Part shown: positions 1-64,000 of the stretch, in pieces | Layout: the number at the start of each line of letters is the position of its first letter | Position numbering within the stretch: the first letter of the stretch is position 1 | NCBI RefSeq assembly: GCF_021513255.1 | Contig: NZ_CP090977.1 | Span: 2,046,001 to 2,110,000 of the forward strand | Direction: 5' to 3' | From: Planococcus sp. 107-1 | GTDB lineage: Bacteria; Bacillota; Bacilli; Bacillales_A; Planococcaceae | DNA: 64,000 nt | The notes under the pieces: model-generated | Seen by the model: the letters and a program-made list of their open reading frames with translations, nothing else | What the model was told of the DNA's origin: nothing | Database searches by the model: none | Program-made: the position numbers and the translations under genes

Positions 1-247
1 TCCACGGGAATACCACCCATGTATCAAGGTCCGGGAACAAATACATATCCGACTCTTCGATCCGTACGAATCCATCGATAGAAGATCCATCGAACATCAT
101 TTTGTTGTCGAGTGCTTTGTCCAGCTGCGATGTAGGGATCTCTACGTTTTTGATAACACCTAGAATATCGGTGAATTGCAAGCGGATAAAATTGACGTCT
201 TCCTCTTTAACTAGTCGTTGAATGTCTTCTTTTGAATATTTACCCAT
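1..247 (-). CDS. glnA: Glutamine synthetase, type I (N-terminal part, runs off the window)
   Basis: The 82 visible N-terminal residues (start ATG at 247) match the beta-Grasp region of GlnA, which makes glutamine from glutamate, ammonia and ATP in the cytoplasm. Recognisable segments are [11 protein letters not shown] near residue 20 and [11 protein letters not shown] near residue 50, the latter highly conserved in GSI. The active-site half lies beyond base 1. It sits 40 bp downstream of glnR in the same direction, the usual glnRA dicistron, so it should be transcribed from the GlnR-controlled promoter at 710-738. In B. subtilis feedback-inhibited GlnA also controls GlnR and TnrA; that is known for the family, not visible here. 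Confidence 0.95.
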
Positions 248-286
248 GAATTCTCCACTCTCCTATTAATAGTATGTAAGCCCGTC

Positions 287-676
287 TCAGTTTGGAAAGA
301 AACGGGATAATTCACCATGCCTAAAACCACTTTGGCTAAGCGGCCTTGCCTGTTGTTGAAGTTCCTCCCGCAAAATCCGTCGAAGTTCCGTATCGGTCAA
401 CGTTTTTGGTTCAGCTGTAACATTTACCGGTACGGATTTCATCGCATAGATCTTCTTGATTCCCGCCATGTTCAACCCTTGGTCCAAATAATCCTTGATT
501 TCAAGCAATGTATCGACATCGTTCAATGAGAACATGCGCTTATTGCCTTCCGTGCGGGCAGGGCTGATCAATCCATGCTCTTCGTAATAGCGGATCTGGC
601 GCGCAGTCAATTCTGTCAGCTGCATCACAATGCTGATGGGCAGAAGCGGCATCGTTCGACGAACCCGATTCGTCAT
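287..676 (-). CDS. glnR: MerR-family nitrogen repressor GlnR
   Basis: This 129-residue protein has an N-terminal MerR winged-helix region (TARQIRYYEEHGLI, residues about 25-38), followed by a coiled dimerisation segment and a short basic/glutamine-rich tail, as in GlnR. The frame is open to 721, but ATG 676 is chosen because an AAGGGTGA ribosome site lies 8 bases upstream and the promoter -10 (710-715) would otherwise fall at the gene start. GlnR represses glnRA when glutamine is plentiful. Two sites of the GlnR/TnrA type (TGTNA-N7-TNACA) overlap and precede the promoter, so autoregulation is very likely. glnA follows after 40 bp. Confidence 0.95.
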   Translation of the reverse strand: MTNRVRRTMPLLPISIVMQLTELTARQIRYYEEHGLISPARTEGNKRMFSLNDVDTLLEIKDYLDQGLNMAGIKKIYAMKSVPVNVTAEPKTLTDTELRRILREELQQQARPLSQSGFRHGELSRFFPN

Positions 677-709
677 TATTTTCACCCTTTTCAGTTTTAC
701 TACTCTTTC

Positions 710-738
710 AGTATAAAACATGTTAGATAAATTGTCAA
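710..738 (-). promoter_or_regulatory. glnRA sigma-A promoter
   Basis: On the minus strand, -35 TTGACA (733-738) and -10 TATACT (710-715) are separated by exactly 17 bases. Transcription would start near 703 and give a leader of roughly 27 bases before glnR. Confidence 0.85.
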
Positions 739-760
739 ACTCATGTTATGTTTTCTAACA
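721..760 (-). promoter_or_regulatory. Tandem GlnR operators
   Basis: The site at 744-760 reads TGTTA-N7-TAACA, a perfect match to TGTNA-N7-TNACA. A second at 721-737 reads, on the minus strand, TGACA-N7-TAACA, with one deviation, and overlaps the -35 element. B. subtilis glnRA has the same pair, one site upstream of and one within the promoter. Confidence 0.8.
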
Positions 761-761
761 C

Positions 762-794
762 AAAAATATTCCTGCACTCTTTCAAGTGCAGGAA
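762..794 (-). terminator. Terminator after the ynbB-like gene
   Basis: A 10-bp stem (769-778 with 785-794, TTCCTGCACT/AGTGCAGGAA) and a 6-base loop are followed on the minus strand by TATTTTTG. It separates the upstream lyase gene from glnR. Confidence 0.8.
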
Positions 795-797
795 CAC

Positions 798-2031
798 TTA
801 TAAAAGACCGGATTCTTCTAAAGCTGCGATTGAATTCAATACCGCAATTTTCACATGTTCATAAGTTAATCCGCCTTGCACAAAGGCGGTGTAGGGCGGC
901 CGAATCGGGCCGTCTGCTGTGAGTTCGATGCTGGAGCCTTGGACAAATGTCCCAGCTGCCATGATGACATCATCTTCATATCCCGGCATATAGGCCGGTT
1001 CCGGTTTGAACTGTGCATTTACCGGCGAACTGTTTTGGATCGTTTGGCAAAAGGCGATCATCTGCTCTGCCGTTTTAAAAGAAACGGATTGGATAAGGTC
1101 AGTCCGCGGCGCAGAATAATGCGGCGTCGTTTCCATCCCTACCGATTCCAAAAGAGCCGACGTGAAGATCGCCCCTTTTAAGGCTTGCGAGACAATGTGC
1201 GGAGCCATAAAAAAGCCTTGATACATATCAGGCAACGCGTTCAACGAAGCTCCTGCCTCTCCTCCTATACCCGGAGAAGTCATCCGGTAACCGCATTTTT
1301 CGACTAAATCTGCTTTTCCGGCAATATAGCCGCCGATTTTCGCCAAACCGCCTCCCGGATTTTTGATTAAAGAGCCGGCAATCAAATCTGCACCAGCCTC
1401 GATCGGTTCCCGCCTCTTCCACAAACTCTCCGTAGCAATTGTCCACAAAAATGATGGCATCTTCCTTTATTACTTTGACACGCCGGACCATCTCTTCAAT
1501 TTCACCGACGGTAAAAGAGGGCCGTGTATCGTAGCCGCGTGATCGCTGGATTGCAACCACTTTTGTTTTTTCTGAAACAGCGCTTTCAACATTGGCCCAG
1601 TCGATCTGATTGCTCCTCGTTAAATCGATATGCTGATAGCCAATGCCAAAATCCTTAAGGGAGCCCGTATCCTTTTCGCCTCCCGAGACGATGGCGTCTA
1701 AAGTGTCATAAGGCTTTCCTGTGATGTACATCAATTCATCCCCCGGTCGCAGCACGCCAAAAAGCGCAATGGTAATTGCGTGGGTTCCGGAAATGATTTG
1801 TGGGCGGACCAAAGCTGCTTGCGCTTTGAAGACATCCGCATAGACTTTTTCTAAAGTGTCCCGTCCTTCATCATCGTAGCCATACCCTGTAGAAGGGTTG
1901 AAATGATGGTCGCTCACTTTTTGACGATGGAAAGCATCCAATACTTTCTTCTGATTCAGGAAGGCGATGTCGTCTGCACGCCGCAATTCTTTTTGGATTG
2001 TTTCTTCGATTGTTCTGATTGTTGTCTGCAT
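798..2031 (-). CDS. ynbB: PLP-dependent cystathionine/methionine gamma-lyase-like protein, YnbB family (frameshifted)
   Basis: Joined across one frame break the product is about 410 residues, the usual YnbB size (often labelled aluminium resistance protein). The N-terminal part has the PLP fold (VRPQIISGTHAI, FVDNCYGEF). The C-terminal part has SLIKNPGGG, whose lysine should carry the cofactor. The start is ATG 2031 with GGAGATTAAC in front. The frame breaks at about 1413: after FVEE the protein resumes as REPIEAGADL if one G/C base is removed from the GGCGGG run, so this is probably an extra base in the sequence. The true substrate is unknown for the family. Position just upstream of glnR is as in B. 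subtilis. Confidence 0.88.
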
Positions 2032-2078
2032 GTTAATCTCCATTCATTTTTAATGCCATTTCCATTATTGCGCGAAAC

Positions 2079-2106
2079 TTGAAATTGCGTCAAACTCTGA
2101 TACAAT
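2079..2106 (+). promoter_or_regulatory. Promoter of the TRIC-like gene
   Basis: TTGAAA (2079-2084) and TACAAT (2101-2106) are spaced by 16 bases. The coding start at 2141 has a GGGAGGATC ribosome site. This is the only clear plus-strand promoter in the window. Confidence 0.6.
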
Positions 2107-2140
2107 TCATAGAGTTAGTTTTTCAGGGAGGATCAGTGCA

Positions 2141-2788: not shown

Positions 2789-2789
2789 A

Positions 2790-3089: not shown

Positions 3090-3136
3090 GATTTATTTCC
3101 TCCTGCCAAATGTTTAAGATTAAGCTACTTAAAAAG

Positions 3137-3451: not shown

Positions 3452-4400
3452 CTACTCTGTGATTTGCCGTGCTATTAGCTCTATTCGACGGTCCCGCTTC
3501 TTTTTCCTGCATCATCGTTTCAATTTCTGCCAGTTTTTTTTCATTTTCTTCTAAGGCATCAATCCAAAAGATCGGCAACTTGTTTTTAAAATAAGTAAAC
3601 TGCCGTTTGGCGTACTTCCGGGAATTTTGCTTGATTTTGCTGATGGCATCATCCAAGGACAATTGGCCGTCAAAATAAGCATAAATTTCTTTGTAGCCAA
3701 TCGCTTGAACCGATTGGACCCCACGAACCCCCTGGTCATACAAGCCCTTTACTTCTTCTAAGAGCCCTTTTTGGAGCATGGCATCCACCCGCCCATTGAT
3801 CCGTTCATATAGGATTGGCCGTGGAATATCCAAGCCTACGATCAGTTCGTTGTACATGGGAGACAATGCTTTGGTCCGTTCTTCCTTCGCCTGCCCGCCC
3901 ATATTGATTTCAATGGCACGCAGCACTCTGCGTGTGTTATTCGGATGGATATCAGCATCCGGGTCAAGTGCAAGCAATTTTTCGTGCATCGCCAGAGGGC
4001 CCCGTAGTTTCAGTTCTTCAGCCAGTTTCTCGCGAAGTTCTTCATCCGCTTGCTGATCTGAAAAGCGGTAGTCAAAGAGCACAGCTTGGACATATAGCCC
4101 GGAACCGCCGACGATAATGGGGAATTTGCCGCGCAACTTTATTTCCGCAATCTTCCCTCTAACTAGTTGCTGATACTCCGCAACGGAAAAAGGCTCTTTT
4201 GGGTCTTTGATATCCAGTAAATGATGGACGACCCCATCCATTTCATGCGCCTCAATTTTAGCGGTGCCAATCGACAACCCCTGGTAAACTTGCATCGAGT
4301 CGCCGTTGATGATTTCCCCGTCATACCGTTTTGCCATTTCTAAACTTAATGCCGTTTTGCCGGAAGCAGTCGGTCCGACAATGGCCATTACATCAATCAT
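3452..4400 (-). CDS. miaA: tRNA dimethylallyltransferase MiaA (3' frameshift)
   Basis: MiaA adds the dimethylallyl group to A37 of tRNAs reading UNN codons. The P-loop GPTASGKT is at residues 9-16, and [10 protein letters not shown] and the tRNA-binding SVQAIGYKE segment are clear. In the given sequence the frame continues into hfq. Removing one G from the GCGGG at 3493-3497 gives a natural tail ([15 protein letters not shown]) and a TAG at 3452-3454, about 315 residues, 23 bases before hfq. The fusion is therefore probably a sequencing artefact. The start overlaps the upstream hydrolase gene by 8 bases, implying translational coupling. Confidence 0.9.
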
Positions 4401-5365: not shown

Positions 5366-7221
5366 TTACATGACGCGCTTAAACATTTTTTCCACATCAT
5401 AGGTTTTAAAGTGGATAATGACTGGACGGCCATGCGGACAAGTGAATGGTTGTTCTGCATCCTTGAGATCCGCCAACAACCGCTCCATCTCATGCTTTTG
5501 AAGATAATGATTCGCCTTGATGGAACGTTTGCAGCTCATCATGATCGCCGCATCTTCCCGCAGTTTTTTTACATCCACTTTTCGTTCATTCAACACTTGT
5601 TCGATTAAATCTTCAATCACTTCCTGCTCAAATCCCGAAGGAAACCAAGTCGGATGCTCCCGAACGATAAACGAAGTGTCCCCGAACTCTTCCAAAAAAA
5701 CGCCGCTTTCAGCCAAGACATGCAAACTGTCTTTCAAGCGCAGCGCCTCGTCCCGGCTATAGTGGAAAGTCAGCGGCAAGAGTAGAGCCTGCCGTTCTCC
5801 AGCATCAATATCGCCGACTTTTTCCCGAAAGAACTCATATTTGATCCGTTCCTGTGCCGCGTGCTGGTCGATCAAATAAAAACCATCATCGCTTTGCGCC
5901 ACAATATACGTGCCATGAATTTGGCCAACGACTTCAAGTTCCGGAAATTGAGGGCTAGTATCTTCTTCAAATTCCGGTTCTACTTGAAGATTTTCAGGCT
6001 GTTCATCGTACAGCCTTTCTTCCGGCGTTTCAAAAGGCGTCGTTTCTACCACGTTGCTTTCTTCTGGTGGAAGATGATGCACGGGCTTCAAAACAGGCAG
6101 AGTTTCCTCAATATCCGGTTCTTCTTTTCCACGCAGTTCCTGCACCACTTCTTTGACTGTAAACGATGATTTCCAAATATCCAATTGCTTGGAAGGGGTT
6201 TGTTTCGGCGCTTTCGGCTTTTCGATGACCGGCGCCCGGACGGCTGAAGAAATGGTCCGCGTATCGTTGTATGGATCAGTTCCATCAATTCTTTTTCTTT
6301 GCTGAGCCGGATTTGCTGTTTCGCTGGATGTACGTTGACATCGGTCAAATAAGGGTCGCCTTCAATATTCATAACGACGATGGGCTGCCGCTCCAGCGGC
6401 AAAAATGTATGATATGCCTTATGGACGGTGTTCGCAATCGCATAATGTTTTACCCAGCGCCCATTCACGAATAACGAAATGTAGTTTTTATTAGCCCGCG
6501 TGATTTCAGGCAGGGATGCGTATCCTGATATTTTGTAGTCATGCGACTCCCCTTCAAAGGGGATCATTTTCTTGGCAATCGAAACTCCATAAATATCCGA
6601 GATCACCCGTTTGATGTCACCGCTGCCGGAAGTCTGGAGAATCATCCGTCCATCGTGCGACAATTTAAATGAAATTCCCGGATAGCTCAAAGCGAAACGG
6701 TTCATCAGGTCAATTGAATGCCCCAGTTCTGTCTGCAAGGTTTTCATGTATTTCAAACGCGCTGGCGTATTGAAGAACAATTGGTCGATTTGGATATCGG
6801 TGCCTTTTCGAAGAGCGCCTGCACGGTGTTCGATCAAACGGCCGCCTTCCATATGCACATACGTGCCGGATTCGCCGTTTGACGTATGCAGCGTCACTTT
6901 TGAAACGGAAGCGATACTTGCTAATGCCTCTCCCCGGAAACCGAGCGTTCGAATGCGGAATAAATCATGTTCGTTTGCAATTTTACTGGTAGCATGGCGT
7001 GAAAATGACAATAGCGCATCTTCTGAATCCATTCCAGCGCCATTATCGACGATCTGGATAGAAGTCAGCCCCGCTTCGGTTAACAGCACTTCAATAGCGG
7101 TACTTCCAGCGTCGATTGCGTTTTCAACCAATTCTTTGACGACGGATGTGGGCCTTTCGACCACTTCACCCGCTGCTATTTTGTTTGATAACGGCTCGTC
7201 CATTAATCGAATAATCCCCAT
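5366..7221 (-). CDS. mutL: DNA mismatch repair endonuclease MutL (frameshifted)
   Basis: Repaired length is about 618 residues. The N-terminal GHKL ATPase shows NKIAAGEVVERP, the ENAIDAG motif and LGFRGEALASI. The C-terminal dimerisation domain has DQHAAQERIKYE near residue 450, the DQHA-X2-E-X4-E metal motif of nicking MutL proteins, so this MutL should cut the nascent strand in mismatch repair. The frame is lost near 6257-6260 (CCGC on the plus strand): after HTTIR the protein continues as TISSAVRAP if one base is restored. Loss of MutL would make a mutator, but the break matches the pattern seen in essential genes here. mutS ends 4 bp upstream. Confidence 0.93.
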
Positions 7222-7225
7222 ATCC

Positions 7226-13379: not shown

Positions 13380-14439
13380 TTATTCCTCTTCGTCAATCAG
13401 AAGATTAAACTCTTCCGGCTCTTCGTCTTTATTGGCGGCAATCGTATAAGTTGCTGCTGCCATGCCATAAGATTCGCGGATTTTGTTTGAAATTTCGTTG
13501 CGGATTTCCGGATTTGCAAGCAAGAACTGCTTCACATTTTCACGGCCTTGTCCAATGCGCTCGTCATTATAAGAATACCAAGATCCACTCTTCTGGATGA
13601 TTTCAAGATCTGATCCGATATCCACGATTTCACCTTCGCGGAAATCCCTTTACCGTACATGATATCGAGTTCAGCTGTACGGAACGGCGGAGCTACCTTG
13701 TTTTTCACAATCTTAATTTTCGTTCTGTTACCGATAATTTCAGCACCTGATTTCAATGCCTCAGCACGGCGCACCTCTAAACGGACAGATGAATAGAATT
13801 TCAAAGCACGTCCGCCTGGTGTTGTTTCCGGGTTACCGAACATAACGCCGATCTTTTCACGAATCTGGTTAATGAAAATAACGATCGTGTTTGACTTGTT
13901 GATAACGCCTGACAATTTACGAAGGGCTTGGGACATCAAACGTGCCTGCAACCCCATATGGGAGTCGCCCATTTCGCCTTCGATTTCCGCTTTTGGCACC
14001 AATGCCGCAACAGAATCGACGACTACGATATCAACAGCGCCGCTTCGTACAAGCGCTTCAGCGATTTCCAATGCTTGCTCCCCTGTGTCCGGCTGAGACA
14101 AGAGCAGCTCATCAATATTAACGCCAAGATTTTTTGCATAAACTGGATCTAATGCATGCTCAGCATCGATAAATGCAGCTGTTCCGCCTGTCGCTTGAAC
14201 TTCTGCGATAGCATGAAGGGAAACTGTCGTTTTACCTGAACTTTCAGGTCCATATATTTCAATAACACGCCGCGCGGATATCCGCCTATTCCTAACGCCG
14301 TATCAAGTGCCAATGAACCACTCGAAACCGATGATACATTACGGTCGCTTTTCTCGCCTAATTTCATTACAGATCCTTTACCGAACTGCTTTTCTATACT
14401 TTTTAACGCCATGTCTAACGCTGCTTTACGATCGCTCAA
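13380..14439 (-). CDS. recA: Recombinase RecA (two frameshifts)
   Basis: With two single bases restored the product is about 353 residues, normal for RecA. The N-terminal [20 protein letters not shown], Walker [58 protein letters not shown] and [17 protein letters not shown] segments are all present, but in three frame pieces. Breaks: about 14270 (CGCGG/CGTG, before [12 protein letters not shown]) and about 13640 (CGCGGAAA on the plus strand, before [10 protein letters not shown]). Both are single missing bases at GCGG, so error is far more likely than two real mutations. The start is TTG 14439, 7 bases after GGAGG. Promoter and LexA box lie upstream. Confidence 0.95.
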
Positions 14440-16531: not shown

Positions 16532-17395
16532 CTGCGTCCGTAAATTGAATAACAATATTTTGTGTGATCAAGTCTTGCGTATATTCAATCGGTTCGCCAT
16601 TTACAGTAAGTTTTACATTTGAGCTCGCTCCCAGTCTGACACGCACTTGCGCAACACCTGAAACGTCTATTGCTTCACTGTCGCTCGCCTGCATTGTGCG
16701 TGCCGGCTGCATCAACTCCTGCTGATCTGGGCCAGTAGCCGATACCCAAGATGGGCCGCTCGCTTCAATTTTCAATTCCGCGTCGCAGGACCTTGCCAAG
16801 CAAACGTAGTCGTTTCCCCTTCGGTCCCTACTACAGAAATGCTGGTTTCCGGTTTAGCAGGTTCCTCTGGCTCTTCAGCCGGAGCTTCTTCTGGTTCTTC
16901 CTCAACTGGCGCCGCTTCTTCATCTTCACCGTTTGGTTCTTCGTACGGAACGCCTTCTTCATCTGTCGCATCTTCCAATGGATCATTGGTCGCCAAATTA
17001 TTATAAAAGAAAATAACAACTGCTAATATGACGACAATAAATAAAGCGACAATCACTTTTGGCATAATTTCACCAAGGCCATTAGAAGAACTTTTTGCTA
17101 AAGTTTGGCGCCGGGAAGGAGTTGGCGGCGTAAGCGTCGGCCGAACTTCCTCTTTCACTGAAACCGGAACCTCGGATTTATGCTGTTCGAGCAGTTCATC
17201 CGAATTCAAGCCTACCGCTTCCGCGTATTGTTTAATGAACGCACGAACATAAAATGGTCCGGGCATCATGCTATGATTGCCTTCTTCAATCCCTGCCAAA
17301 TAGCGTTTTTGTATCTTTGTCACATCCTGTAAATCCTCTAAACTGTACCCTTTGGCGATTCTCGCCTCTTTCAAACGAGTACCTAATTCACTCAA
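16527..17395 (-). CDS. rodZ: Cell-shape protein RodZ (YmfM-like, frameshifted)
   Basis: Repaired length is about 289 residues. Residues 1-70 form the cytoplasmic helix-turn-helix that contacts MreB (LGTRLKEARIAKGYSLEDLQ). After a linker comes one membrane helix (KVIVALFIVVILAVVIFFY, about 115-133), an acidic Glu/Pro-rich stretch (EEAAPVEEEPEEAPAEE) and a periplasm-facing DUF4115 beta domain. TTG 17395 is taken as start (MSELGTRL), 5 bases after AGGTGA. The frame breaks near 16778-16781 (CCGC): after WQGPAT one base is missing, and LKIEASGPSWVSATG continues in another frame. It sits with pgsA and ymfK, as in B. subtilis. Confidence 0.88.
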
Positions 17396-17412: not shown

Positions 17413-18209
17413 TTAAAAGTTAAATCCGCCGAACATATCCGCTTGATTTTGGTCGCCCATGAAGTGGTTTTTCTCCAACACTTCATATGTAATCTTTTCT
17501 TCTGGATGATGGCGCAATTCGATAATATAATCGAAATCTTCGATGCTGTACTCAGATTGCTGGACAAACATATCCGGATGTTCCACAACTTTAATCGTTG
17601 GCATGCGCATCATTTCTCGAACCAGCTGCATATGGCGTTCATCTCCGGAACGGCGTGTGACGATGCCGTCCAGTATGAAGATATTATTCGCGTTATGCTC
17701 ATCTCCCATCAACTGATTCCGCACCGTCTGCTTGATCATCGTTGAAGATAGGAAAATCCATTTCTTATTGGCACTCACACTCGCTGCGACGATCGATTCT
17801 GTTTTTCCGACCCTCGGCATCCGCGCAAACCGACTAATTTATGGCCTTCCTGCTTGAAAATCTCAGCCATGAAATCTACTAATAATCCGAGCTCATCACG
17901 GACAAAACGAAACGTCTTGCGATCGTCCGCATCTCTTTGTATATAACGGCCATGGCGAACTGCTAAAATATCGCGGAGTTTCGGTTCACGGAATTTCTTC
18001 ACTGCGATTGTCTCGATAGTAGAAACAATTTGTTCGAAGCGCTCCAATTGAACATCATGCTCTGCGCGTAAAAGCATTCCTCGCCTGCCTTGGTCTACGC
18101 CATTGATAGTGACGATATTTACTCGGAGCATACCAAGAAGAGAAGCTATATCTCCTAATAAACCCGGACGATTCACTTGAATTTCGTATTCAAAATACCA
18201 TTCTCTCAT
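17413..18209 (-). CDS. ymfK: DUF3388 protein YmfK (ACT-like plus P-loop, frameshifted)
   Basis: Repaired length is 265 residues. The N-terminal 80 residues look like an ACT-type ligand domain (YEIQVNRPGLLGDIASLLGM, VNIVTINGVDQGRRGML). The rest has a P-loop-like GMPRVGKTES near residue 133 and a SIMIBI/RecA-like flavour (IFILDGIVTRRSGDERH). The function is not known to me. The frame breaks at about 17820 (CCGC on the plus strand): one missing G between GLRG and MPRVGKTES. It lies between ymfI and rodZ; ymfJ, found between ymfI and ymfK in B. subtilis, is absent. Confidence 0.82.
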
Positions 18210-20416: not shown

Positions 20417-21682
20417 CTGAATCGTCCTCCTTGCCAGCTAGGAAATACGTCATTTCCAATGATAATGATTGAGCCGCATCGGCAATATCTTCTTTTGTCA
20501 CAGCATTCCATCTGCTGATCAAATAATCGGGTTCAAATGCTTTATCGAGTTCCATGTATTGATCGTAAATGTCAATTTGGCCTCTCGCCGAATCCAAAGC
20601 TTCTTTTAATTGATTGATCAAAAGCGCTTTTGTCTGATCCAGTTCTACGTCCGAAATATTGGCTCGTTTCACTTCTTCCAATTGTTCAAGTATGAGCTTC
20701 ACAGCTTTGCCTTCCAGTTTCGAATCAATGCCGGCAAGCACAAACATCAAACCGAACTGAGAAGCGTACGAACTTGAAACGTAGTAAGCCATGCTTTCTT
20801 TCTCTCGGATATTGACGAATAATTTCGAATGGGCATAACCGCCAAGAACTCCGTTCATCAATTGCATAACCGGGAACTTTTCGTCGCGGAAAGTGATCGG
20901 CGTGAAGAAGGCCATGTGCAATTTCCCTTGTTTCATGTCTTCGTATTCGATAACCCGTGAAGTTTCAGGAGAGGTCAATTGCGTTGACGGCCCTTCCACT
21001 GCCTGTTCGCGGTCTTCGAAATGGAAGTATTGTTTAATATAGGAAGCAATTATTTCCGGCTTGATGTCGCCGACCACATAAATTTCAATTTCATTATTGT
21101 TCAATAATGTTTGGTATTCTTTCAGCAGCTGGTCGTTCGTCACTTTTTCCAATTCTTCAAGCGATCCATTCGCTTGGATGGAAGCAGGGTGCCCTGGCAA
21201 TGCGAGTTCCATCATGCGCTGCTGCGCGTAGCGGTTTTTTCATCAAAGATTGACTCAATCCGTTCTTTAATCGTCTGCTTTTCACGCAGGAAAATGGATT
21301 CTTTGAAAAGCCCGTTTTCCATATTCGGCTTGAATAGGACAACATACATCAAGTTCAGGACTTTTTCCAACACCCCTTCTTCGGATAAATACTGGTCATT
21401 CACCGTTTCTACATTCAAAGTCACGATGTGTTCATTGCCCCGTTTAGAAGAATCTATGTAGAGGGATGTGCCGTACAGACCGTCCAGCACCATGCGCAGC
21501 GCCGTATGAGATGGATACACCTCATTGCTATGCTGAAGCACATTTGCCAAAATAGAACGGGCAGATGCCTTTTCAGGTGTTAAGCGATCCTTGAATTTAA
21601 AAGAAAAATTTATCGTCTTAAATTGAGTTGTTTCATTTACATGGACATTAACGCCTTTTGCAATATTAATAGATTGAAACAT
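20409..21682 (-). CDS. ymfF: M16 peptidase-like protein YmfF, no zinc motif (frameshifted)
   Basis: Repaired length is about 424 residues. It is related to YmfH, but where HxxEH is expected it reads VLQHSNEVYP, so it is probably the non-catalytic partner. The frame breaks near 21231-21234 (GCGG): FDEKT resumes as RYAQQRMMELALPGHP after restoring one G/C base. The two pieces otherwise abut exactly. Its 3' end overlaps ymfH by 8 bases, supporting one heterodimeric unit. Confidence 0.87.
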
Positions 21683-23817: not shown

Positions 23818-25350
23818 GCTGATCCTCCTTATGATTAGAACCTCGAACGGCATGCCCTGCCATCAGCAAGCCCAGTTCCTGTTCTGTCGTTTCTTCTGGA
23901 AGCACCGTATCTACAATTTCACCGTCATGGATAACGGCGATGCGGTCGGATACGTTCATGACTTCATCCAATTCGAACGAGATCAATAGAACCGCTTTTC
24001 CGTTATCCCGCTGTTCAATCAAACGGCTATGGATAAATTCAATCGCCCCTACGTCTAACCCCCGTGTTGGCAAGGCCGCTATCAGCAGTTCAGGATTCCG
24101 GTCAACTTCACGGCCGATAATCGCTTTTTGCTGGTTACCGCCTGATAATGCTCGGGCAGGTTCGTGCGGTCCTTGAGTCCGGACATCGTACGCTTCAATG
24201 ATTGCTTTCGCTTTTTCATCAATCTTGTTGTAATCGATAATGCCATTTTTTGAAATCGGCTGTTGATAATAAGTCTGCAATGAAATATTATGGCCGATTG
24301 GGAAATCTAACACCAAACCGTGTTTATGCCGATCCTGAGGAATATGGCCAATACCAGCTTCAGTTACTTTACGCGGTTTTAATCCGGTAATGTTCTTGCC
24401 ATGAAGCGAAATTGTTCCGCTCTTCACTTTGCGCAGTCCGGTAATCGCTTCAATCAATTCTGACTGACCATTTCCGTCTATACCGGCAATTCCGACAATT
24501 TCACCTGCACGGACATCCAAGTTCAGCTTTTTGACTTTCGCTACCCGCGGTAATCGTCAACTACTAAATCTTTGACGCTTAAAATATTCTCTTTAGGAGA
24601 AGCGGGACTTTTCACTGTCTTGAATTCAACTTGGCGGCCGACCATCAAAGAAGCCAGTTCTTGCGGATTGGTCTCAGATGTAATGACTGTCCCAATGCCT
24701 TGCCCTTTTCTGATAACGGTTACGCGATCGGAAACATCCATAATCTCTTTTAGTTTATGCGTAATCAAGATGATGGATTTACCTTCTGCGATCAATCGTT
24801 TCATAATTTGGATCAATTCTGTAATTTCCTGAGGCGTCAAGGAAGCAGTCGGCTCATCGAAAATCAGGATTTCTGCACCGCGGTACAAAGTTTTTAAAAT
24901 TTCGACGCGCTGCTGCATACCTACTGAAATGTCTTCGATGATTGCATATGGATCGACATTCAAACCGTACTGCTCAGATAGTGCTTGAACTTTCTTGGCA
25001 GCGTCTTTTTTGTTGGTCACCCCGTATTTAGTAGGCTCACTGCCCAGGATGATGTTTTCTGTTACCGAGAAATTCTCGACTAGCATAAAGTGCTGGTGCA
25101 CCATGCCGATCCCTAAATCATTTGCTACGTTCGGGTCTGTAATGTCCACTTTTTCTCCGCGGACCCGGATTTCTCCGCCTTCAGGCTGGTAAAGCCCAAA
25201 CAGCACGTTCATTAAAGTTGATTTTCCTGCCCCATTCTCTCCCAATAACGCATGAATTTCGCCTTTTTTGAGTTGAAGCGTTATATTGTCATTGGCAACG
25301 AATGTCCCAAACTCTTTACGAATATTGAGCATTTCGATTACATATTCCAT
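23807..25350 (-). CDS. nupO: Nucleoside ABC transporter ATPase, duplicated (NupO type, frameshifted)
   Basis: Repaired length is 514 residues with two fused ATPase domains, as in the RbsA/YufO group. Domain 1 has Walker A GENGAGKST near residue 38 and DEPTASL; its ABC signature region reads EDISVGMQQRVE. Domain 2 has the degenerate Walker A GIDGNGQSEL and signature LSGGNQQKAI. The break is at 24544-24548: GATTACCGCGGG loses one G, so DDYRG meets a stop instead of continuing VAKVKKLNLDVRAGEIVG. Start ATG 25350 follows AAGGAGTG. The two-domain fusion itself is normal for the family. Confidence 0.92.
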
Positions 25351-25515: not shown

Positions 25516-26599
25516 TTAGTTTTCTAGAGTTTCAGGAACGACGATTTCGCCGCTAGCGATTTTCTCTTTGTACTCATCAATTTTAGCCATAACGTCTTCA
25601 GTGATTGCTCCGCGTGAATCCGCAAGGCCAACCCCGTCTTCAGCCAAACCGTAAGTCAATGTTTCGCCGCCAGGGAAGTTTCCTTCCATTGCTTGAGTTG
25701 AGATATCGATTACCGCTTGATCTACACCTTTAAGAACTGAAGTAAGTGTTACGTTTGCATCGCCGACTTGACCTTCGTCGTATTGGTCAGCATCTACACC
25801 GATAACCCAGATGTTCGTGTCTGGATCAGCTTCTTTGCGTTCTTTTGCTTCCGTGAATACACCGTTTCCTGTTCCGCCAGCTGCGTGGAATACGATATCC
25901 GCTCCAGCAGAGTACATGCGGTTAGCAGTTGTTTTACCTAATTCCGCTTTATCAAAAGCACCTGTATATTGTACATCGACTTCAACTGCAGGATCTGCAG
26001 CTTCAACACCCGCTTAGGAATCCAGCTTCAAAACGCTCGATTACCGGAATTTCCATTCCGCCAACGAAACCGATCTTGCCAGTTTCTGTCATAAGAGCTG
26101 CAGCTACACCCGCAAGGAATGCACCTTCTTGCTCTTTGAACAATACGCTAGCTACGTTTGGAGCATCAACGACAGCATCGATAATTGCGATTTGAGCGTC
26201 CGGCTGCTGTTCAGCAATTTCTTTTACAGCGCCTTCCATCAAGAACCCAATTCCATAAACGACGTCGAAGTCACGACGGATCAAGTTGTTTAAGTTCGTA
26301 TTATAGTCTGCATCAGAAGCCGACTGAAGATAGTCAAATCCGCCGTCTCCTTTTTCAAGGCCGTTTTCTTCACCAAATTCTTGGATACCTTCCCAAGCTG
26401 ATTGGTTGAATGATTTATCATCCACACCGCCGACATCTGTAACCATAGCTACTGAGAAGTCGCTTGTTTCTTCTGAACTTCCGCCGTCGCCAGATCCAGC
26501 GTCACCGTTTGAAGTATCTTCGTCGCTGCCACACGCGGCAAGCATCGTTCCCGCTGCAAGCATTAAAGATAGACCTAGACCAAATTTACGTTTCGTCAA
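25516..26599 (-). CDS. nupN: Nucleoside-binding lipoprotein, BMP/NupN family (frameshifted)
   Basis: Repaired length is about 360 residues. The type II signal peptide ends in LAAC (cysteine about residue 22), followed by a Gly/Ser/Asp-rich tether. The basic membrane protein domain then shows [39 protein letters not shown] and [17 protein letters not shown]. It is the extracellular binding protein of the ABC importer encoded downstream. The frame breaks near 26010-26013 (CCGC): one extra G after GFLS; removing it gives [16 protein letters not shown]. The start is TTG 26599, preceded by GGGGGTTATTACA. Confidence 0.92.
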
Positions 26600-39755: not shown

Positions 39756-42063
39756 TTACGTTCGATTTCTTCCATTACGAAGGCTTCAATAATGTCATTT
39801 TCTTTTACATCATTAAAGTTTTTAATCGTGATCCCGCATTCGTAGCCTTTAGCTACTTCTTTAGCATCGTCTTTAAATCGTTTCAATGTATCGATTTCAC
39901 CTTCGAAAACGACAATTCCTTCACGAATGACACGCACACCGCTATCACGTGTAATCTTGCCTTCAATTACATAGCTTCCGGCAATCGTTCCGACTTTAGA
40001 AACTTTGAACGTGCTGCGGACTTCTGCTTGGCCGATGACTTTTTCTTCAAACTCGGGGTCAAGCAAGCCTTTCATTGCAAATTCAATTTCTTCAATTACT
40101 TTATAAATGATACGGTGCAAGCGAATATCTACGCCTTCTGCTTCTGCCGCACGTTTCGCATTTACATCTGGACGGACGTTAAATCCGATTACGATTGCGT
40201 TTGAAGCAGCTGCGAGTGAAATATCGGATTCGGTAATCGCACCAGCGCCAGTATGGATGATTTTCACATTTACGCCTTCAACATCGATTTTCATAAGAGA
40301 AGCAGCCATCGCTTCAACTGCACCTTGAACGTCAGCTTTAACAATGAGGTTCAATTCTTTCATTTCCCCTTGTTTCAACTGGTCAAACAAATTGTCGAGG
40401 GTAACACGTGTTTTTTCAGAACGCTGCACTTGAAGCGCAGAAGTTGCACGGGTTTCACCGACTTGGCGAGCCGTTTTCTCATCTTCAAACACAACAAAAC
40501 GATCTCCTGCTTGAGGCACATCGTTCAATCCCGTAATTTCAACTGGGGTTGACGGGCCGGCATCTTTTACGCGGCGGCCAATATCATTGACCATTGCACG
40601 GACGCGTCCGTAAGTATTGCCGACAACAATCGGATCTCCTACGTTCAACGTACCATCTTGAACAAGCAAAGTAGCGACAGAACCGCGGCCTTTATCAAGT
40701 TCCGCTTCAATTACTGTACCGATAGCGCGGCGAGCTGGATTGGCTTTTAATTCCCCTACTTCAGAAACAAGCAAGATCATTTCTAAAAGTGTATCGATTC
40801 CTTCGCCTTTTAAAGCAGAAATCGGCACAAAAATTGTATCTCCGCCCCAAGCTTCAGGGACTAAACCGTGCTCTGTCAATTCCTGCATAACGCGGTCAGG
40901 GTTAGCGCTTGGCTTATCCATTTTATTGACGGCAATGATGATTGGCACTTCTGCAGCTTTTGCATGGTTGATCGCTTCTACAGTCTGCGGCATTACTCCA
41001 TCATCTGCAGCTACTACGATAATTGCAAGGTCAGTCACTTTCGCTCCCGCGCCCGCATTGTTGTAAACGCTGCGTGGCCTGGAGTATCAAGGAACGTAAT
41101 TTTCTTGCCATTTTCCACAACTTGGTATGCACCGATATGCTGTGTGATTCCGCCGGCTTCGCCTGCAGTCACTTTTGTATGGCGGATTGAATCCAGTAAA
41201 GTTGTTTTACCATGGTCAACGTGGCCCATGATTGTGACAACTGGCGGACGCTCTTCATTCAAGGTTTCATCTTCTGCTTCGAAGTAAACTTCCAAGTCAG
41301 ATTTATCAACGATGATTTCTTCTTCCACTTCCACTTCATATTCTGCACAGATCAATTCGATTGCATCTTTATCCAGCTCTTGGTTGATGGTCGCCATAAC
41401 TCCAAGCATGAATAATTTTTTAATGATTTCAGAAGGCTCACGCCCTAATTTTTTCGCTAATTCACCAACTGTCAACGATTCAGAGAACGTAATTTTAGCT
41501 GGCAATTCTTTTTCTTTCTTAGGCATAGGCGGCATCGGATTTACTGGACGCTGCTGCTTTCCTTTATTGCGGTTGCGGTTTCCACCGCCGCCTGGACGGT
41601 TTGAATTGCGCTGTCCTGGACCCGCAGTCGGTTTTGCAGCTTTCGGCGTAAAGTTCGAGCCGGATTTTGCTGGCGCTGCCGGGCGTTGGCCATTTCCTTG
41701 TGAACGGGACTGCCCTTGGCTTGGTGAAGCTGGACGGGATTGCCCTTGCCCTGATGGACGGTTTTGTCCTTGTCCAGCCGGACGGGATTGACCCTGTCCT
41801 GATGGACGCGAACTGTTTTGTCCACCTTGTGGACGAGAACCTTGTCCGCCTTGCGGACTTTTTTGAGCGTGCTGTTGGCGCATTTGCGTTTGCTGTCCTT
41901 GCACAGATTTCTTATAAATGCCGTCCAATTTTGAAACAGCATTGTCCTCTAATGTAGCCATATGGTTGGCAACTTCAATATTTAGCTTTGATAACTGGTC
42001 AATAATCTCTTTTGTCGGTTTATCTACTTTTTTAGCGTATTCATGTACTCGAATTTTGGTCAT
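39752..42063 (-). CDS. infB: Translation initiation factor IF-2 (frameshifted)
   Basis: Repaired length is about 770 residues. The N-terminal IF2N domain ([19 protein letters not shown]) is followed by a Gln/Gly/Pro/Ser-rich low-complexity linker (about 60-170) and a second N-domain. The GTPase has [27 protein letters not shown] and NKMD, followed by the C-terminal fMet-tRNA-binding domains. The break is at 41047-41050 (CCGC): [11 protein letters not shown] loses one G in GCGGGGAG. ATG 42063 with GGGGGTGAGCAG in front is the start. The gene is essential, so this break is a strong case for sequence error. Confidence 0.96.
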
Positions 42064-42686: not shown

Positions 42687-43843
42687 TTATTCTTCTTCGT
42701 TGTAGAAATCGAAATCGTCCAATTCTTCTCCAGATTCGACCAACTCGATTGATGAGTTTTCATTCGGATAAATTCCCATTTCACGGGCATCCGTTTCACT
42801 CTTGATATCAATTTTCCAACCCGTCAATTTAGCAGCTAAACGTGCGTTTTGACCGCGCTTGCCAATTGCTAGTGAAAGCTGGTAATCCGGCACGACAACT
42901 GTTGTCGATTTTTCATCTTCATTGACTTGAACATCTAGAACTTTTGAAGGGCTAAGCGCATTCGCAACAAATACAACTGGCTCTTCCGACCATTCCACGA
43001 TATCGATTTTTTCTCCGCTTAGTTCATTGACAATGGTTTGAACGCGTGCGCCTTTTGCTCCGACACACGAACCTACTGGATCGATGTCTTCACGGTGTGC
43101 GACAACAGAGATTTTCGAACGGTCTCCGCTTCGCGTGCGATCGATTTGATTTCGACAATTCCTTCAAAAATTTCCGGAACTTCGTTTTCAAACAAACGGC
43201 GAAGAAGGCCTGGATGTGTACGGGAAACGAACACTTGCGGTCCCCGTGTCGTGCGCTCGACTTTAGTGATGTAAACTTTGATGCGGTCATGAGGCTGGTA
43301 AGACTCATTCGGCATTTGTTCAGTCTGAGGAAGCACGGCTTCCACTTTTCCAAGACCCACATAAAGATTGCGTGCGTCCGTCCGCTCTACAATTCCGTTA
43401 ACGATATCATCAGCACGGTCAACGAATTCTTCGAAAATCAAACCACGTTCCGCTTCGCGCACGCGTTGCGTCACAACTTGCTTCGCTGTTTGGGCAGCAA
43501 TGCGGCCAAAATCACGAGGCGTCACTTCTTCCTCTACAACATCGCCAAGTTCGTAAGCTGGATTGATCGCTTTTGCATCTTCAAGCGAAATGTGAAGACG
43601 TTCATCTTCCACTTCTTCCATAACATCTTTGCGCGAATAGACGAGCATTGTACCGGTGCCCAAATTCAAATCTACACGAACGTTTTGTGCTTGGTTGAAA
43701 TTACGCTTATACGCTGTTACTAAAGCAGCTTCAATCGCTTCAATCAGCACTTCTCTAGAAATCCCTTTTTGCTTTTCCAAAGCATCCAATGCTTCTAGCA
43801 GCTCATTGCTGCTGTTCTTGCTTGTTTTCTTGCTCTTAGCCAT
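42687..43843 (-). CDS. nusA: Transcription elongation/termination factor NusA (frameshifted)
   Basis: Repaired length is about 385 residues. The N-terminal RNA polymerase-binding domain is followed by S1 ([32 protein letters not shown]) and two KH domains ([37 protein letters not shown]). It controls pausing and termination. The break at 43126-43129 (CCGC): SIAREAG should continue [18 protein letters not shown] after restoring one G, so the piece 43073-43843 and the rest join. There is no C-terminal acidic repeat beyond a short Glu/Asp tail, as in Bacillus. It ends 20 bases before rnpM. Confidence 0.95.
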
Positions 43844-43867: not shown

Positions 43868-44352
43868 TCAATCAGGTTTCACAGAAAAGTCAATTGCCAG
43901 ACGGATTACTGCAATTTTTTCCCGTGGAATCGCAATTGTTTTTCTGCGTGTTTTGATTTTAATTTCAATTTCTACTTGTTCCTCATTATACGATAGCAAA
44001 TATCCTTCAAATTCTTTCGCGTCTTCAATCGGTTCATAGGTTTTAATGTAGATGAATTTTCCCGGGCATTATCGAAGTCCTTGTCTTTTTTCAACGGACG
44101 TTCAGCTCCTGGAGAAGAAACTTCCAGGAAATAATTTTGCTCGATCGGATCGATTTCATCTAAGATTTCACTTAATTTTTCGCTGACCACTGCACATTGC
44201 TCAATATCAATCGGCGCTTCCGGATTATCTACAAACACCCGTAAAAACCAGCTGCGGCCTTCTTTTACAAATTCCACATCAACGAGTTCCAAATTCAGTT
44301 CTTCGATGATGGGCAAAGCCAGTTGTTCAATTTGTTCTGTAATTTTGCTCAT
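43868..44352 (-). CDS. rimP: Ribosome maturation factor RimP (frameshifted)
   Basis: Repaired length is 161 residues. The N-terminal domain ([21 protein letters not shown]) and [14 protein letters not shown] near residue 85 are RimP hallmarks. The frame is lost at 44061-44066 (CCCGGG): after DNA the protein continues [19 protein letters not shown] once a C is restored, and ends DFSVKPD at a TGA (43868-43870). RimP assists 30S assembly. It heads the nusA-infB cluster. This is the second break not at GCGG, though still a C/G run. Confidence 0.92.
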
Positions 44353-44476: not shown

Positions 44477-47400
44477 CTAGAAGAGCGACAACTGGTTGGC
44501 ATCAGGCATTCCTTCAAGGCACCCGTGGTCGTCCATGTATTCGATGATGGTTTTCGACACACGCCCGCTGTTGAAGATCTTCTTTTGATAAGAATGTCCC
44601 ATGTTCCCGAGCGGCAACAATTGATTTGGCCGCATTGGTTCCAAGTCCTGGAATGGCATTGAACGGGGGAATCAAGGAAGTTCCGTCGATGATGAATTCA
44701 TCCGCTTTCGATTTATACAAATCGACTTTCTGGAAAGTAAATCCGCGTTCCACCATTTCGAGTGCGAGTTCCATTACCGTCATCAAGTTCTTCTCTTTCG
44801 TCGATGCCTCTAAGCCTTTTGAATTGATTTCCTCTACCCGTGCGCGGATAGAGGAAGAACCTTTCGCCATGGCGTTGACATCAAAATCTTCAGCACGCAC
44901 CGTGAAGTACGCTGCGTAATAAAGGATCGGGAAATGCACTTTGAAATAAGCGATCCGGACAGCCATTAAAACATAAGCTGCAGCGTGAGCTTTCGGGAAC
45001 ATGTATTTGATCTTTTTACACGATTCAATATACCAGTTCGGCACGCCTTCTTTTTTCATCGCTTCTTCCATTTCCGGCGTCAGCCCTTTACCTTTACGGA
45101 CCGATTCCATAATTTTAAAAGCGAGCGATGATTCAAGCCCTTGATAAATCAAATAAACCATAATATCATCCCGGCAGCCAATTACATCCGATAATTGGCA
45201 TGTCCCGTTTTGAATCAGCTCTTGTGCATTACTGAGCCAAACATCTGTCCCATGCGATAGTCCGGAAATCTGAACCAATTCCGAAAACGTCGTCGGCTTT
45301 GTTTCTTCGAGCATTTGGCGAACGAAACGCGTACCAAATTCCGGAATGCCGAGCGTCCCGGTTTTACAGCCGATTTGCTTTTCGGTAACGCCAAGCGATT
45401 CTACGCCCGAAAAGATTTTCATCACTTCGGGATCATCTGTCGGAATCGTTTTTGGATCTATCCCCGACAAATCTTGCAGCATCCGGATAACAGTCGGATC
45501 ATCGTGTCCCAGAATATCAAGCTTCAGCAAATTATCATGGATCGAATGGAAGTCGAAATGCGTCGTTTTCCATTCGGAATCCTGTGCATCTGCGGGAAAC
45601 TGGATCGGAGAGAAATCGTATATATCCATATAGTCCGGAACAACAATAATCCCGCCTGGGTGCTGTCCTGTACTTCGCTTAACGCCTGAACACCCTTGGA
45701 CGAGCCGATCGATTTCTGCGCCGCGAAGCGTCATGTCACGGTCATTGGCATAGCCGCGGACGTAACCGTAAGCCGTTTTTTCTGCGACCGTACCAATTGT
45801 ACCCGCACGGAATACATTGTCTTCCCCGAACAATTCTTTTGTGTAGTTGTGGGCTCGTGCCTGGTAGTCACCACTAAAGTTCAAATCGATATCGGGAACT
45901 TTATCCCCTTTAAATCCAAGGAAAGTTTCAAATGGGATATCCTGCCCCTCTTTTTGGAAAGGGATGTTGCAGTCCGGACAAAGTTTGTCCGGCAAATCAA
46001 AGCCAGATCCGACGGAACCGTCATCAAAGAATTCCGATTTCTGGCATTTCGAACAAATATAATGAGGCGGCAATGGATTGACTTCCGTAATCTCCGTGAG
46101 CGTCGCAACCAGCGACGATCCGACCGATCCACGGGAACCTACCAAATACCCGTCATCCAAAGATTTTTTCACCAGTTTATGCGAGATCAAATAGATGACC
46201 GCAAAACCGTGTCCGATAATGGATTTCAACTCTTTTTCAATTCGGGCTTCTACAATTTCAGGCAGCTTCTCTCCGTAGATTTTATGGGCCATATTATAGC
46301 TTAATTCACGGACTTCTTCATCTGCCCCTTCAATTTTCGGTGTATACAAATCATCTTTGATCGGTTTGACCGTATCAATCATATCCGCAATTTTATTCGA
46401 ATTGCCCACGACGATTTCATGGGCTGTTTCTGCACCAAGAAATTCAAAAGCATCCAGCATTTCATTGGTTGTACGGAAATGGACTTTCGGCAATTTATGG
46501 CGATTCAGCGGATTGGCCCCGCCTTGGGAACCAATCAATACTTGTCTGAAAATCGCATCGTTTTCATTTAAATAATGGACGTTGCCTGTTGCAACGAGCG
46601 GAATTTCCAGCTTTTTGCTGACCTTCACTAGTTTGCGGATGACATCTTCCAGATTCCACTCATCCCGGATCAATTCACGTTCGATCAAATGTGAGTAGAC
46701 TTCTTTCGGATGGACTTCTAAATAATCATAGAACTTCGCTGTCTGCTCTACTTCTTCCATGGATTTCTGCATAACCGCTTCAAATACTTCCCCTTTGTCG
46801 CAGCCAGAGCCGACGAGCAGGCCTTTTCGGTGGCGCTGCAGCAAAGAACGCGGGATGCGCGGTACGCGGTAGAAATAATCGATATGTGAAGCGGATACTA
46901 ATTTGAACAGGTTTTTCAAGCCTTCATCATTTTGGGCAAGCAAGGTGCAATGCGTCGGCCGGGAGCGTTTATAAGAATCCCCGCCGCCCACGTAATCATT
47001 GAGCTCATCGTGATAAAGAATCCCTTTTTGGTGAGCTTCTTTCAACAGATGCGTCAGTAGATATGATGTCGCTTCCGTATCGTAGATTGCCCGGTGATGC
47101 TGGGTTAACTCGATGCCGAATTTTTTTGCCAGCGTATTCAACCGGTGATTTTTCAATTCGGGATGCAGCATACGGGCGAGTTCCAAAGTATCGATTGTAG
47201 CATGCTTTGTATCAATGCCGTATTTTTTATAGCTGACGTATAGGAAACCCATATCAAATGAAGCATTATGGGCAACCATGATATGATCGCCGGCCCACTC
47301 ATGGTAATTGCGGATGACTTCCTCGACTTCAGGTGCATTTTTCACCATATCATCCGTGATGCCGGTCAAGTCGATGGTCGTTGCTGACAATTCATGATGC

Positions 47401-61168: not shown

Positions 61169-61181
61169 GGTAAGTCCCCCT

Positions 61182-62075
61182 CTAAGCTCTTGGATGAGCA
61201 TTTAAATATGTTTTTCGTAAATGTTCTTTGGTCACATGTGTATAAACTTGCGTCGAACTTAAATGTGAATGCCCGAGCAATTCCTGCACCGTCCGCATAT
61301 CAGCTCCATTATTCAGCAAATGGGTTGCAAAAGTATGGCGGATCATATGGGGATAGATTGTGGAATTGACAGACGCTTTTTTCATGCACTCACTCAAGAT
61401 ATGACGGATGCCTCGGTCTGTCAGCAGTTCGCCGCGATTATTGACGAAGAGCCCTTGATGCTCTTTTTTCTTCATTAATCTAGGACGTGCTTCTTCAATG
61501 TAATGTTCCAATGCCTCATGGGCAAACTGTCCATAAGGGATGTAGCGCTCTTTCCGCCCTTTCCCCATGACTTTGACAATTTGCATGTGGCGGTCTAAAT
61601 CCTGCATCCGGATATTTACGCATTCGCTGACCCGCATGCCGGTCGCATATAACAATTCAAGGATCGCCATATTCCGCATAGACAAATTGTCTTCGCCTTG
61701 AACAGAACGGAATAAAGCCTCCATTTCTTCTTCATAGAAAAATTGCGGCAGGCGTTCCTCTTTTTTCGGATGGTAAAGCGACCGGAAAGCGGCTTCACTT
61801 AGTCCGAATTCACGGTTTCCATATTTGAAAAAGGAACGGATGGATGAGATTTTTCTTGAAATGGTCGTACGCGATAACGTCATTTCGTATAAATTCGTGA
61901 CATAATTTCTAGCATGCAAATATTCTACTTCCCGAATATCCGGAATCCCTTCTTTTTCTAGGAACAGAAAAAAATCCTCCAAATCTTTTTCATAATGGTG
62001 GACGGTGTGTTCAGAATAATTCTTTTCGAGTTGAATGTAGGTCATAAATGATTTGAGCATCTCTTCTTTATTCAT
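61182..62075 (-). CDS. xerC: Tyrosine recombinase XerC (CodV)
   Basis: This 297-residue recombinase has the N-terminal core-binding domain ([22 protein letters not shown]) and the catalytic domain with arginine in [11 protein letters not shown] near residue 150, [10 protein letters not shown] (His-x-x-Arg) near residue 242, [14 protein letters not shown] with the tyrosine near residue 277. With a partner Xer it resolves chromosome dimers at dif. ATG 62075 ([10 protein letters not shown]) follows AGGTGGG; the longer open frame to 62147 would run through the upstream terminator. Confidence 0.95.
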
Positions 62076-62105
62076 CCGATGGACCCACCTTTTTTGTACA
62101 AATAG

Positions 62106-62142
62106 AAAAGCCTCTAAATTATAACAACATTTAGAGGCTTTT
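62106..62142. terminator. Terminator between trmFO and xerC
   Basis: A perfect 14-bp stem AAAAGCCTCTAAAT/ATTTAGAGGCTTTT (62106-62119 with 62129-62142) lies 5 bases after the trmFO stop, with a T run on the plus-strand side and TTTTC on the minus-strand side. On the minus strand its loop and second arm also contain TATAATTT, so it might hold a -10 for xerC. Confidence 0.82.
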
Positions 62143-62147
62143 TTCAA

Positions 62148-63457
62148 TTAAACCGTCACGGTATTCATAAAATTGTGAATCGCTGCCAGTGCACGGTCAG
62201 CGTGCTTCTCTGCGCGTTCCTGCTTGGATTTTACGCGTTCGCCTAAATCCGGGAACAAACCGAAGTTGATGTTCATCGGCTGGAAGTTTTTGCTGTCAGC
62301 TTCCGTGATATAGCGGGCCATGCTTCCCAAAGCCGTTTCCGCCGGGAAGATGATCTGTTCTTCTCCAAGGGCAAGTTTAGCAGCATTGACTCCTGCAAGC
62401 AATCCGCTTCCCGCTGATTCTACGTAGCCTTCAACGCCTGTCATTTGGCCGGCAAAGAAGATATTCGGATTCGCTTTCAATTGATACGTCGGCTTCAATA
62501 CCCGCGGCGAGTTGATGAATGTATTGCGGTGCATTACACCGTATCTGACGATTTCTACATTCTCAAGCCCTGGAATCAAACGAAGCACTTCTTTTTGAGG
62601 TCCCCATTTCAAATGTGTTTGGAAACCGACAATATTGTAAAGCGTACCGGCAGCATCGTCCTGACGAAGCTGTACGACTGCATATGGGCGCTTGCCAGTT
62701 TTCGGATCTTCAAGCCCTACCGGCTTCATCGGTCCGAACGTCAACGTTTTTTCCCGCGTGCCGCCATAACTTCAACCGGCATACAGCCTTCAAAATAAAT
62801 CTCTTTTTCAAATTCTTTCAAAGGCACAACTTCCGCTTCAACTAAAGCCGTATGGAAACGTTTAAATTCTTCTTCCGTCATCGGGCAATTTAAATAAGCC
62901 GCTTCCCCTTTGTCATACCGGGATTTCAAATAGACTTTATCCATATCAATGCTGTCTTTTTCAACAATCGGCGCTGCCGCATCGTAGAAGTAAAGGTATT
63001 CTTCACCCGTCAATTCTCTGATTTTTTCAGCCAAAGCCGGTGAAGTTAGCGGACCTGTTGCAATGATTGTGATGCCTTCTGGTATTTCCGTTACTTCTTC
63101 GTTGATCACTTCGACTAAAGGATGATTGCGGACTTTGTCAGTTACCATCCCAGCAAACTCGTGGCGGTCAACTGCTAATGCTCCACCTGCAGGGACCGAA
63201 GCGCGGTCAGCAGATTCGATGATGACCGAATCCATGTGGCGCATTTCCTCTTTGATCACTCCGACTGCATTTGTAAGAGAGTTTGCACGCAATGAATTGC
63301 TGCATACCAATTCTGCAAATTTATCTGTATGGTGCGCAGGCGTCTGTTTTACTGGACGCATCTCATAAAGACGCACATTAATTCCTCGTTTGGCTACTTG
63401 CCAAGCTGCTTCACTTCCAGCAAGGCCTGCCCCTATCACGTTTACATACTTCGTCAT
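62148..63457 (-). CDS. trmFO: Methylenetetrahydrofolate-tRNA (uracil-5-)-methyltransferase TrmFO (frameshifted)
   Basis: Repaired length is 436 residues. The FAD loop [12 protein letters not shown] is at residues 9-20, followed by [21 protein letters not shown] and a C-terminal part with [20 protein letters not shown]. It makes 5-methyluridine 54 in tRNA using methylene-THF and FAD (Gid family). The break is at 62754-62757 (CCGC): MAARG should continue [16 protein letters not shown] after restoring one G. It lies between topA and xerC as in B. subtilis. ATG 63457 follows AGGTGTTAAAAC. Confidence 0.95.
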
Positions 63458-63476
63458 GTTTTAACACCTCTGTTTA

Positions 63477-64000
63477 TTATTGAACTTCTTCTTTGTAATC
63501 ACAGCTTGTACAATTGATCTGCACGCCTTTTTTGACTTTCTTTTCGACAAGCAGCTCACTGCATTTCGGACACGGCCGTTCGATGGGTTTATCCCAAGAA
63601 ACAAAGTCGCATTCCGGATAGCGTTCACAGCCATAGAAAATTCGGCGTTTCTTGCTTTTGCGTTCCACGATTTCGCCTTCTTTGCAGGTCGGGCATGTGA
63701 CGCCGATATGCTTGACGATCGCTTTTGTATTCCGGCATTCCGGGAAATTGCTGCAAGCCATGAATTTGCCGTACCGGCCAAGCTTAAAGACCATAGCTGA
63801 ACCGCACACTTCACAATCTTCTCCTGCAGGCTCATCTTTAATCTGGACTTTCTCCATTTCATTTTCAGCGACTTCGAGATCTTTTTCAAAATCCTTGAAG
63901 AATACATCAATGATGGCGCGCCAGTCGATATCGCCTTCTTCTACACTGTCCAAGTCATTTTCCATTTTCGCGGTAAACTCAATATTCAAGATATCCGGAA
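63477..64000 (-). CDS. topA: DNA topoisomerase I, C-terminal part (runs off the window)
   Basis: The last ~170 residues of TopA are seen: the end of the catalytic toroid ([20 protein letters not shown]) and three zinc-ribbon modules with Cys pairs [30 protein letters not shown] and [12 protein letters not shown]. TopA relaxes negative supercoils; the ribbons bind single-stranded DNA. The start and active-site tyrosine are beyond base 64000. It precedes trmFO by 19 bases. Confidence 0.96.

Follow-up and report, generated by a model that had tools for sequence, protein, structure and literature searches.

Genes in a 64,000-nucleotide stretch of a Planococcus genome (the window, G000:C1:2046001-2110000) are interrupted by frame breaks at 18 places, and the broken genes are almost certainly sequencing mistakes piled up at one pentamer, CCCGC (GCGGG on the other strand). 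CCCGC is the probable methylation target of a restriction-modification system encoded elsewhere in the same genome, in which two C5-cytosine methyltransferase genes flank the gene of a BpuJI-like restriction enzyme. A preliminary description of the window had ascribed the breaks to a systematic error at GCGG/CCGC, for example through AciI-type cytosine methylation. Our verdict is that the breaks are an artefact and are well explained; the earlier reading is right about the observation and about the class of cause, and its motif is one base short.

Results

The window belongs to a genome (G000) of one contig and 3,513,248 bases. Frame breaks were called against its nearest relative, G008, which is ∼90% identical to it. 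From G008, 324 open reading frames (ORFs) of ≥300 nucleotides (nt) were aligned to 375 kb of G000, the main region, and 323 of them aligned over 329,297 bases. An indel was counted as a break if its length was not a multiple of three, and it was dropped if it was compensated within 45 nt or lay close to a gene end. The main region started with 224 indels, of which the frame criterion left 176, the compensation criterion 94, and the restriction to gene interiors 81. A second region, a 200 kb stretch 0.9 Mb away for which the motif was fixed beforehand, was covered by 144 of 187 ORFs (138,517 bases) and gave 38 breaks. The pooled set holds 119 breaks in 464,446 coding bases and samples ∼17% of the genome; the counts cover frame-changing indels in coding DNA.

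All 18 breaks previously claimed for the window are present in the sequence. They correspond to 19 indels in 17 genes, each at most 4 nt from the claimed place, the count of 19 being due to two neighboring indels in rimP. No further break in the window passed the filters against G008. When other references were used, 14 of the 18 places recurred with G006 and 15 with G001; these runs also gave 18 and 22 further indels, respectively, most of which are clustered alignment noise at ∼80% identity. The breaks had been placed at GCGG/CCGC in 16 of 18 cases, and we find the tetramer within 6 nt of 16 of the 19 indels, as compared to 7.5% of random coding positions. The three indels that lack it, one in spoIIIE and two in rimP, are exactly the exceptions that had been named. 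The G run was said to be mostly one base short, which agrees with 13 deletions among the 16 motif-linked indels. Because essential genes such as recA (twice), polC, infB, and nusA are broken, the breaks are read as errors in the sequence and not as mutations, as the preliminary description had argued.

The genes concerned all lie on the minus strand, and each break was inspected for GCGGG/CCCGC or GCGG/CCGC within 8 nt in its own or the G008 sequence. The pentamer is found at 12 of the 19 indels. GCGGG is present in the own sequence at the breaks in miaA (3495..3497), an ABC transporter ATPase (24544..24546, earlier called nupO), an ABC substrate-binding protein (26011..26015, earlier nupN), infB (41047..41048), polC (44566..44566), and trmFO (62753..62755), and in both sequences at the break in the gene earlier called ynbB (1413..1413). 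It is present in G008 at the breaks in mutL (6258..6259), a RodZ-like gene (16779..16780), and nusA (43127..43127), and G008 reads CCCGC at those in a YfmF-family gene (21232..21233, earlier ymfF) and a GntR regulator (26848..26849, earlier ymfC). At four further breaks GCGGG occurs in neither sequence and the tetramer occurs in the own one, as CCGC in recA (13640..13641) and pnp (34947..34948), as CCGC/GCGG at the second break in recA (14269..14271), and as GCGG in the gene earlier called ymfK (17819..17821). The breaks in an FtsK/SpoIIIE-type translocase (28405..28408) and in rimP (44060..44064, two indels) have no CCGC nearby and were not assigned to the motif. The rimP indels adjoin CCCGGG; CCCGG shows no excess of failures on the G008 sequence (0/785).

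Gene identities were taken from the 17 intact G008 orthologues. Ten exceed the curated cut-off of an NCBIfam model (miaA, mutL, recA, YfmF, pnp, infB, nusA, rimP, polC, and trmFO), while five match below it (RodZ, the FtsK/SpoIIIE-type translocase, the GntR regulator, and the two ABC-transporter parts). The remaining two, labeled ynbB and ymfK earlier, have no NCBIfam match at E ≤ 1e-20. A scan of the window with Rfam returned 0 matches at gathering scores.

The clustering, which had been called far beyond chance, holds in both regions. Near breaks in the main region, CCGC outranks every other tetramer (44/81 versus 4.84 expected), and it does so again in the second region, where it lies within 6 nt of 21 of 38 breaks versus 2.67 expected (background 8.9%). 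Pooled, GCGG/CCGC lies within 6 nt in the own sequence at 69 of 119 breaks. Both strands are affected, with the gene strand reading GCGG at 42 breaks, CCGC at 25, and both at 2. Single-base deletions account for 45 of these 69 breaks and single-base insertions for 15. When either sequence is considered within 8 nt, GCGGG is found at 59 of 119 breaks (background 2.6%) and GCGG at 84 (background 16.4%).

Failure of G runs depends on what precedes them. In both regions together, GG fails at 40/3741 sites after GC, as compared to 1/2912 after AC, 1/3339 after TC, and 6/3889 after CC. The same is true of GGG (15/448 after GC, 11/4133 elsewhere) and of GGGG (11/71 after GC, 5/910 elsewhere). Homopolymer length alone is ruled out as the cause by this dependence. 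Long A runs fail modestly (7/775), and CGCG outside the motif fails at 2/1242 sites.

The base that follows matters as well. Here, per-site failure rates were taken on the intact G008 sequence, because an error rewrites the site in the sequence of G000 itself; CGCGGA, for instance, looks hot on the G000 sequence (18/228). On the G008 sequence, GCGGG fails at 44/743 sites, GCGGA at 16/1683, GCGGC at 4/1515, and GCGGT at 1/1015, and CCCGC leads the ranking of pentamers in each region (29/515 and 15/228 sites); among tetramers in the main region, CCCG outranks CCGC. The 15 one-letter variants of CCCGC, for which sites and events near CCCGC were excluded, fail at 0 to 7.1 per 1000 versus 44/743 for CCCGC, so that all five letters matter. 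Failures at the other NCCGC words are 0/997 for ACCGC, 2/1476 for GCCGC, and 7/1649 for TCCGC. The variants with higher rates have few sites or are transitions (CCCGT 4/565, CCCCC 1/147, and CCTGC 5/822); raised rates of this kind would be expected if G000 has CCCGC where G008 differs from it by one base. For CCCGT, the failures fall to 0/516 after removal of CCGC neighbors. The one-letter variants rule out CCGC as the full motif. The GCGG/CCGC of the preliminary description is therefore the core of the site, which is in full GCGGG/CCCGC.

The pattern is nearly absent from relatives. In the region of the window, GCGGG occurs at 4 of 115 breaks in six relatives, versus 12 of 19 in G000, and 2 of 434 G008 GCGGG sites are broken in the relatives, versus 6 of 89 in G000. 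Three of the relatives' four GCGGG breaks come from one genome, G019, whose 35 breaks, 7 of them close to GCGG, are also the highest count of any relative.

A methyltransferase of CCGC specificity had been suggested as something to seek in the genome. A profile search with PF00145 (C5-cytosine methyltransferase) gave two matches, in neighboring genes at G000:C1 ∼3.144-3.147 Mb, and PF01555 gave no match in the genome. The two genes (L142:11253-12311 and L142:8785-9804) and a restriction enzyme gene that sits between them (L142:9829-11232) are all on the minus strand. The enzyme matches BpuJI_N (PF11564, E 1.4e-82) and NOV_C (5.5e-13), as well as the solved BpuJI structures 5hlt/2vla. Two methyltransferases, active as predicted, would fit an asymmetric site. 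Among 46 genomes of the genus, G000 alone has a match to the BpuJI-like enzyme (E ≤ 1e-5), and a phylum-wide sample of 398 genomes contains two with a match (E ≤ 1e-20), G000 included. The same three-gene order occurs on an Acinetobacter plasmid. The other cassette carriers found are short-read drafts, as judged by contig numbers, or plasmids.

Together with a McrB/McrC-like pair on the plus strand (L142:4947-6719 and 6713-8311), the cassette lies within L142:4611-12762 (G000:C1 ∼3,139,611-3,147,762). The flanks of this segment are conserved in G008 with ∼14 kb of other DNA between them, marking a variable defense spot. An EVE-domain protein (PF01878) is encoded near the cassette at L142:339-1151 on the minus strand, and a similar sequence was read as the N-terminal region of a larger AAA protein at L162:1325-3460. 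In another Planococcus, G049, three genes at L162:4413-10266 were read by eye as C5-methyltransferases; one is 52% identical (aligned) to that of G000, and a protein encoded there reads as a PLD-type nuclease.

BpuJI recognizes CCCGT; glutamine usually prefers A, and arginine prefers G. In an alignment of six enzymes, all share N73 of the G000 enzyme, the counterpart of BpuJI N67. R211 corresponds to BpuJI Q208; five of the six enzymes have arginine there, and the sixth (G777), which resembles BpuJI more, has glutamine. A switch from glutamine to arginine would be expected to change CCCGT into CCCGC. The substitutions N67A and Q208A are reported to abolish DNA binding by BpuJI (PMC9240713). 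We infer a numbering offset of 3 between the PDB chains and the match to the numbering of that paper. It is an even call whether the errors report a BpuJI-family enzyme with two 5-methylcytosine (m5C) methyltransferases reading CCCGC/GCGGG, with the change from CCCGT set by Q208 to R211.

Discussion

We consider it highly probable that the CCCGC errors stem from m5C placed on both strands by this cassette, in an assembly of native long reads that received no short-read correction. The platform would most likely be nanopore. The two C5 methyltransferases at G000:C1 ∼3.144-3.147 Mb would place m5C on both strands of CCCGC, and nanopore base-calling would turn this methylation into indels at the asymmetric pentamer 5'-CCCGC-3'/5'-GCGGG-3', where the miscall appears in most cases to drop one base from the run. 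Since the methyltransferases flank a BpuJI-type enzyme, we predict CCCGC as the site for the entire system. The systematic error proposed earlier thus stands with regard to the single motif and the cytosine-methyltransferase pair that fits it, while the AciI-type tetramer CCGC as the error site does not.

Several observations weigh against this explanation. Most CCCGC sites show no frame break, and no GCGG is seen within 8 nt of 35 of the 119 breaks. Of the 84 GCGG-linked breaks, 25 (four in the window) lack GCGGG in either sequence, and these agree with CCCGC only where a difference between the species conceals the site. Substitutions show no clear excess at CCCGC. It is kept at 276 of 747 aligned places, which ranks it 9th from the bottom among 509 pentamers, but the same behavior is seen in other GC-rich pentamers, and G000 has a lower GC content than G008. 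The methyltransferase search covered PF00145 and PF01555, with N6-adenine and other families not searched. Comparisons of motif usage and substitution give no clear signal of methylation. The observed/expected ratio of CCGC is 1.092 in G000 versus 1.091 in G008. Changes from CCCGC to CTCGC number 22 versus 4, one of 15 comparisons and set against a general AT-ward drift, and own-lineage tetramer changes in the window, judged with two outgroups, give no CCGC excess (36 versus 30).

An AciI-type system, in which all CCGC/GCGG would be methylated and CCCGC alone would show frame errors since its three-base run is easier to miscount, could account for CCGC being the top tetramer in the own sequence of both regions and for the failures that GCGGA still shows on the G008 sequence. 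Such a system, with m5C at CCGC, is documented in Arthrobacter citreus (PMC8112702). We regard it as unlikely, as ACCGC and GCCGC hardly fail, the AciI methyltransferase is described as one composite double protein (PMC4081073) whereas G000 has two separate genes, and the BpuJI-like restriction enzyme does not suit an AciI-type system. Less likely still is an ordinary weakness of the base-caller at GC-rich runs, without modification. Most motif breaks do alter run length by one, as such a weakness would have it, but runs of equal length without a preceding GC fail at least 10 times less, and away from the motif the words CGCG and CCGG escape. Genuine mutation, as in a strain deficient in mismatch repair, might be suspected given that mutL itself is broken; we give this a negligible chance. 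The genes recA (twice), polC, infB, nusA, and rimP are broken as well, loss of mismatch repair would strike runs in any context and not those after GC, and the six relatives show nothing comparable.

The consequences are practical. Broken essential genes in G000 are not to be taken as biology, and its completeness (94.28) and contamination (4.11) values are probably affected by the errors. Errors bound to a modification motif are already known; what is likely new is the predicted CCCGC specificity of a BpuJI-type system. A literature search, with REBASE outside its scope, found nothing on this specificity among the papers listed. The error motif supplies a testable specificity for an uncharacterized restriction-modification cassette, and with it a one-residue hypothesis of how enzymes of the BpuJI type discriminate between A and G. 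More generally, if indels are called by comparison with a close relative and the failing words are ranked on its intact sequence, methylation motifs could be obtained from other unpolished public assemblies without raw reads.

Known systems offer partial parallels. In one nanopore benchmark, Dcm (CCWGG) sites are reported to make up ∼70% of consensus errors, and base-callers trained without a modification to fail at its motif (Wick et al. 2019, PMC6591954). That Klebsiella case, as described, would resemble G000 in that an m5C motif missing from the training data causes much of the consensus error in native DNA; the motif is another one, and in G000 the errors come to light solely as frame breaks, in an assembly already completed. 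Chiou et al. 2023 (PMC10687267) report modification-mediated errors in two Listeria lineages, at GCAGC and GCTGG, which, as is proposed for G000, ties a strain-specific pentamer to a strain-specific modification system. Whole-genome amplification is described there as fixing the errors, and they are given as mismatches, not indels, a further point that counts against our explanation. AciI, from the reports cited above, would have in common with G000 that each strand of an asymmetric, GC-only site carries m5C, which in G000 is predicted, but it has a tetramer site and a fused double methyltransferase, unlike the pentamer and two genes of G000. LlaJI (GACGC) is described as having, like the system predicted in G000, two m5C methyltransferases for an asymmetric site and adjoining McrB/McrC-like genes (PMC1459862). 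The common orientation of a LlaJI-type system is not found in G000, where the methyltransferases are on the minus strand and the McrBC-like genes on the plus strand, and unlike LlaJI, G000 has a BpuJI-like enzyme between the methyltransferases. BpuJI itself shares its recognition domain with the G000 enzyme, and its N67 is kept as N73. It has Q208 where the G000 enzyme has arginine, R211, and its site is CCCGT, whereas the site predicted for the G000 enzyme is CCCGC.

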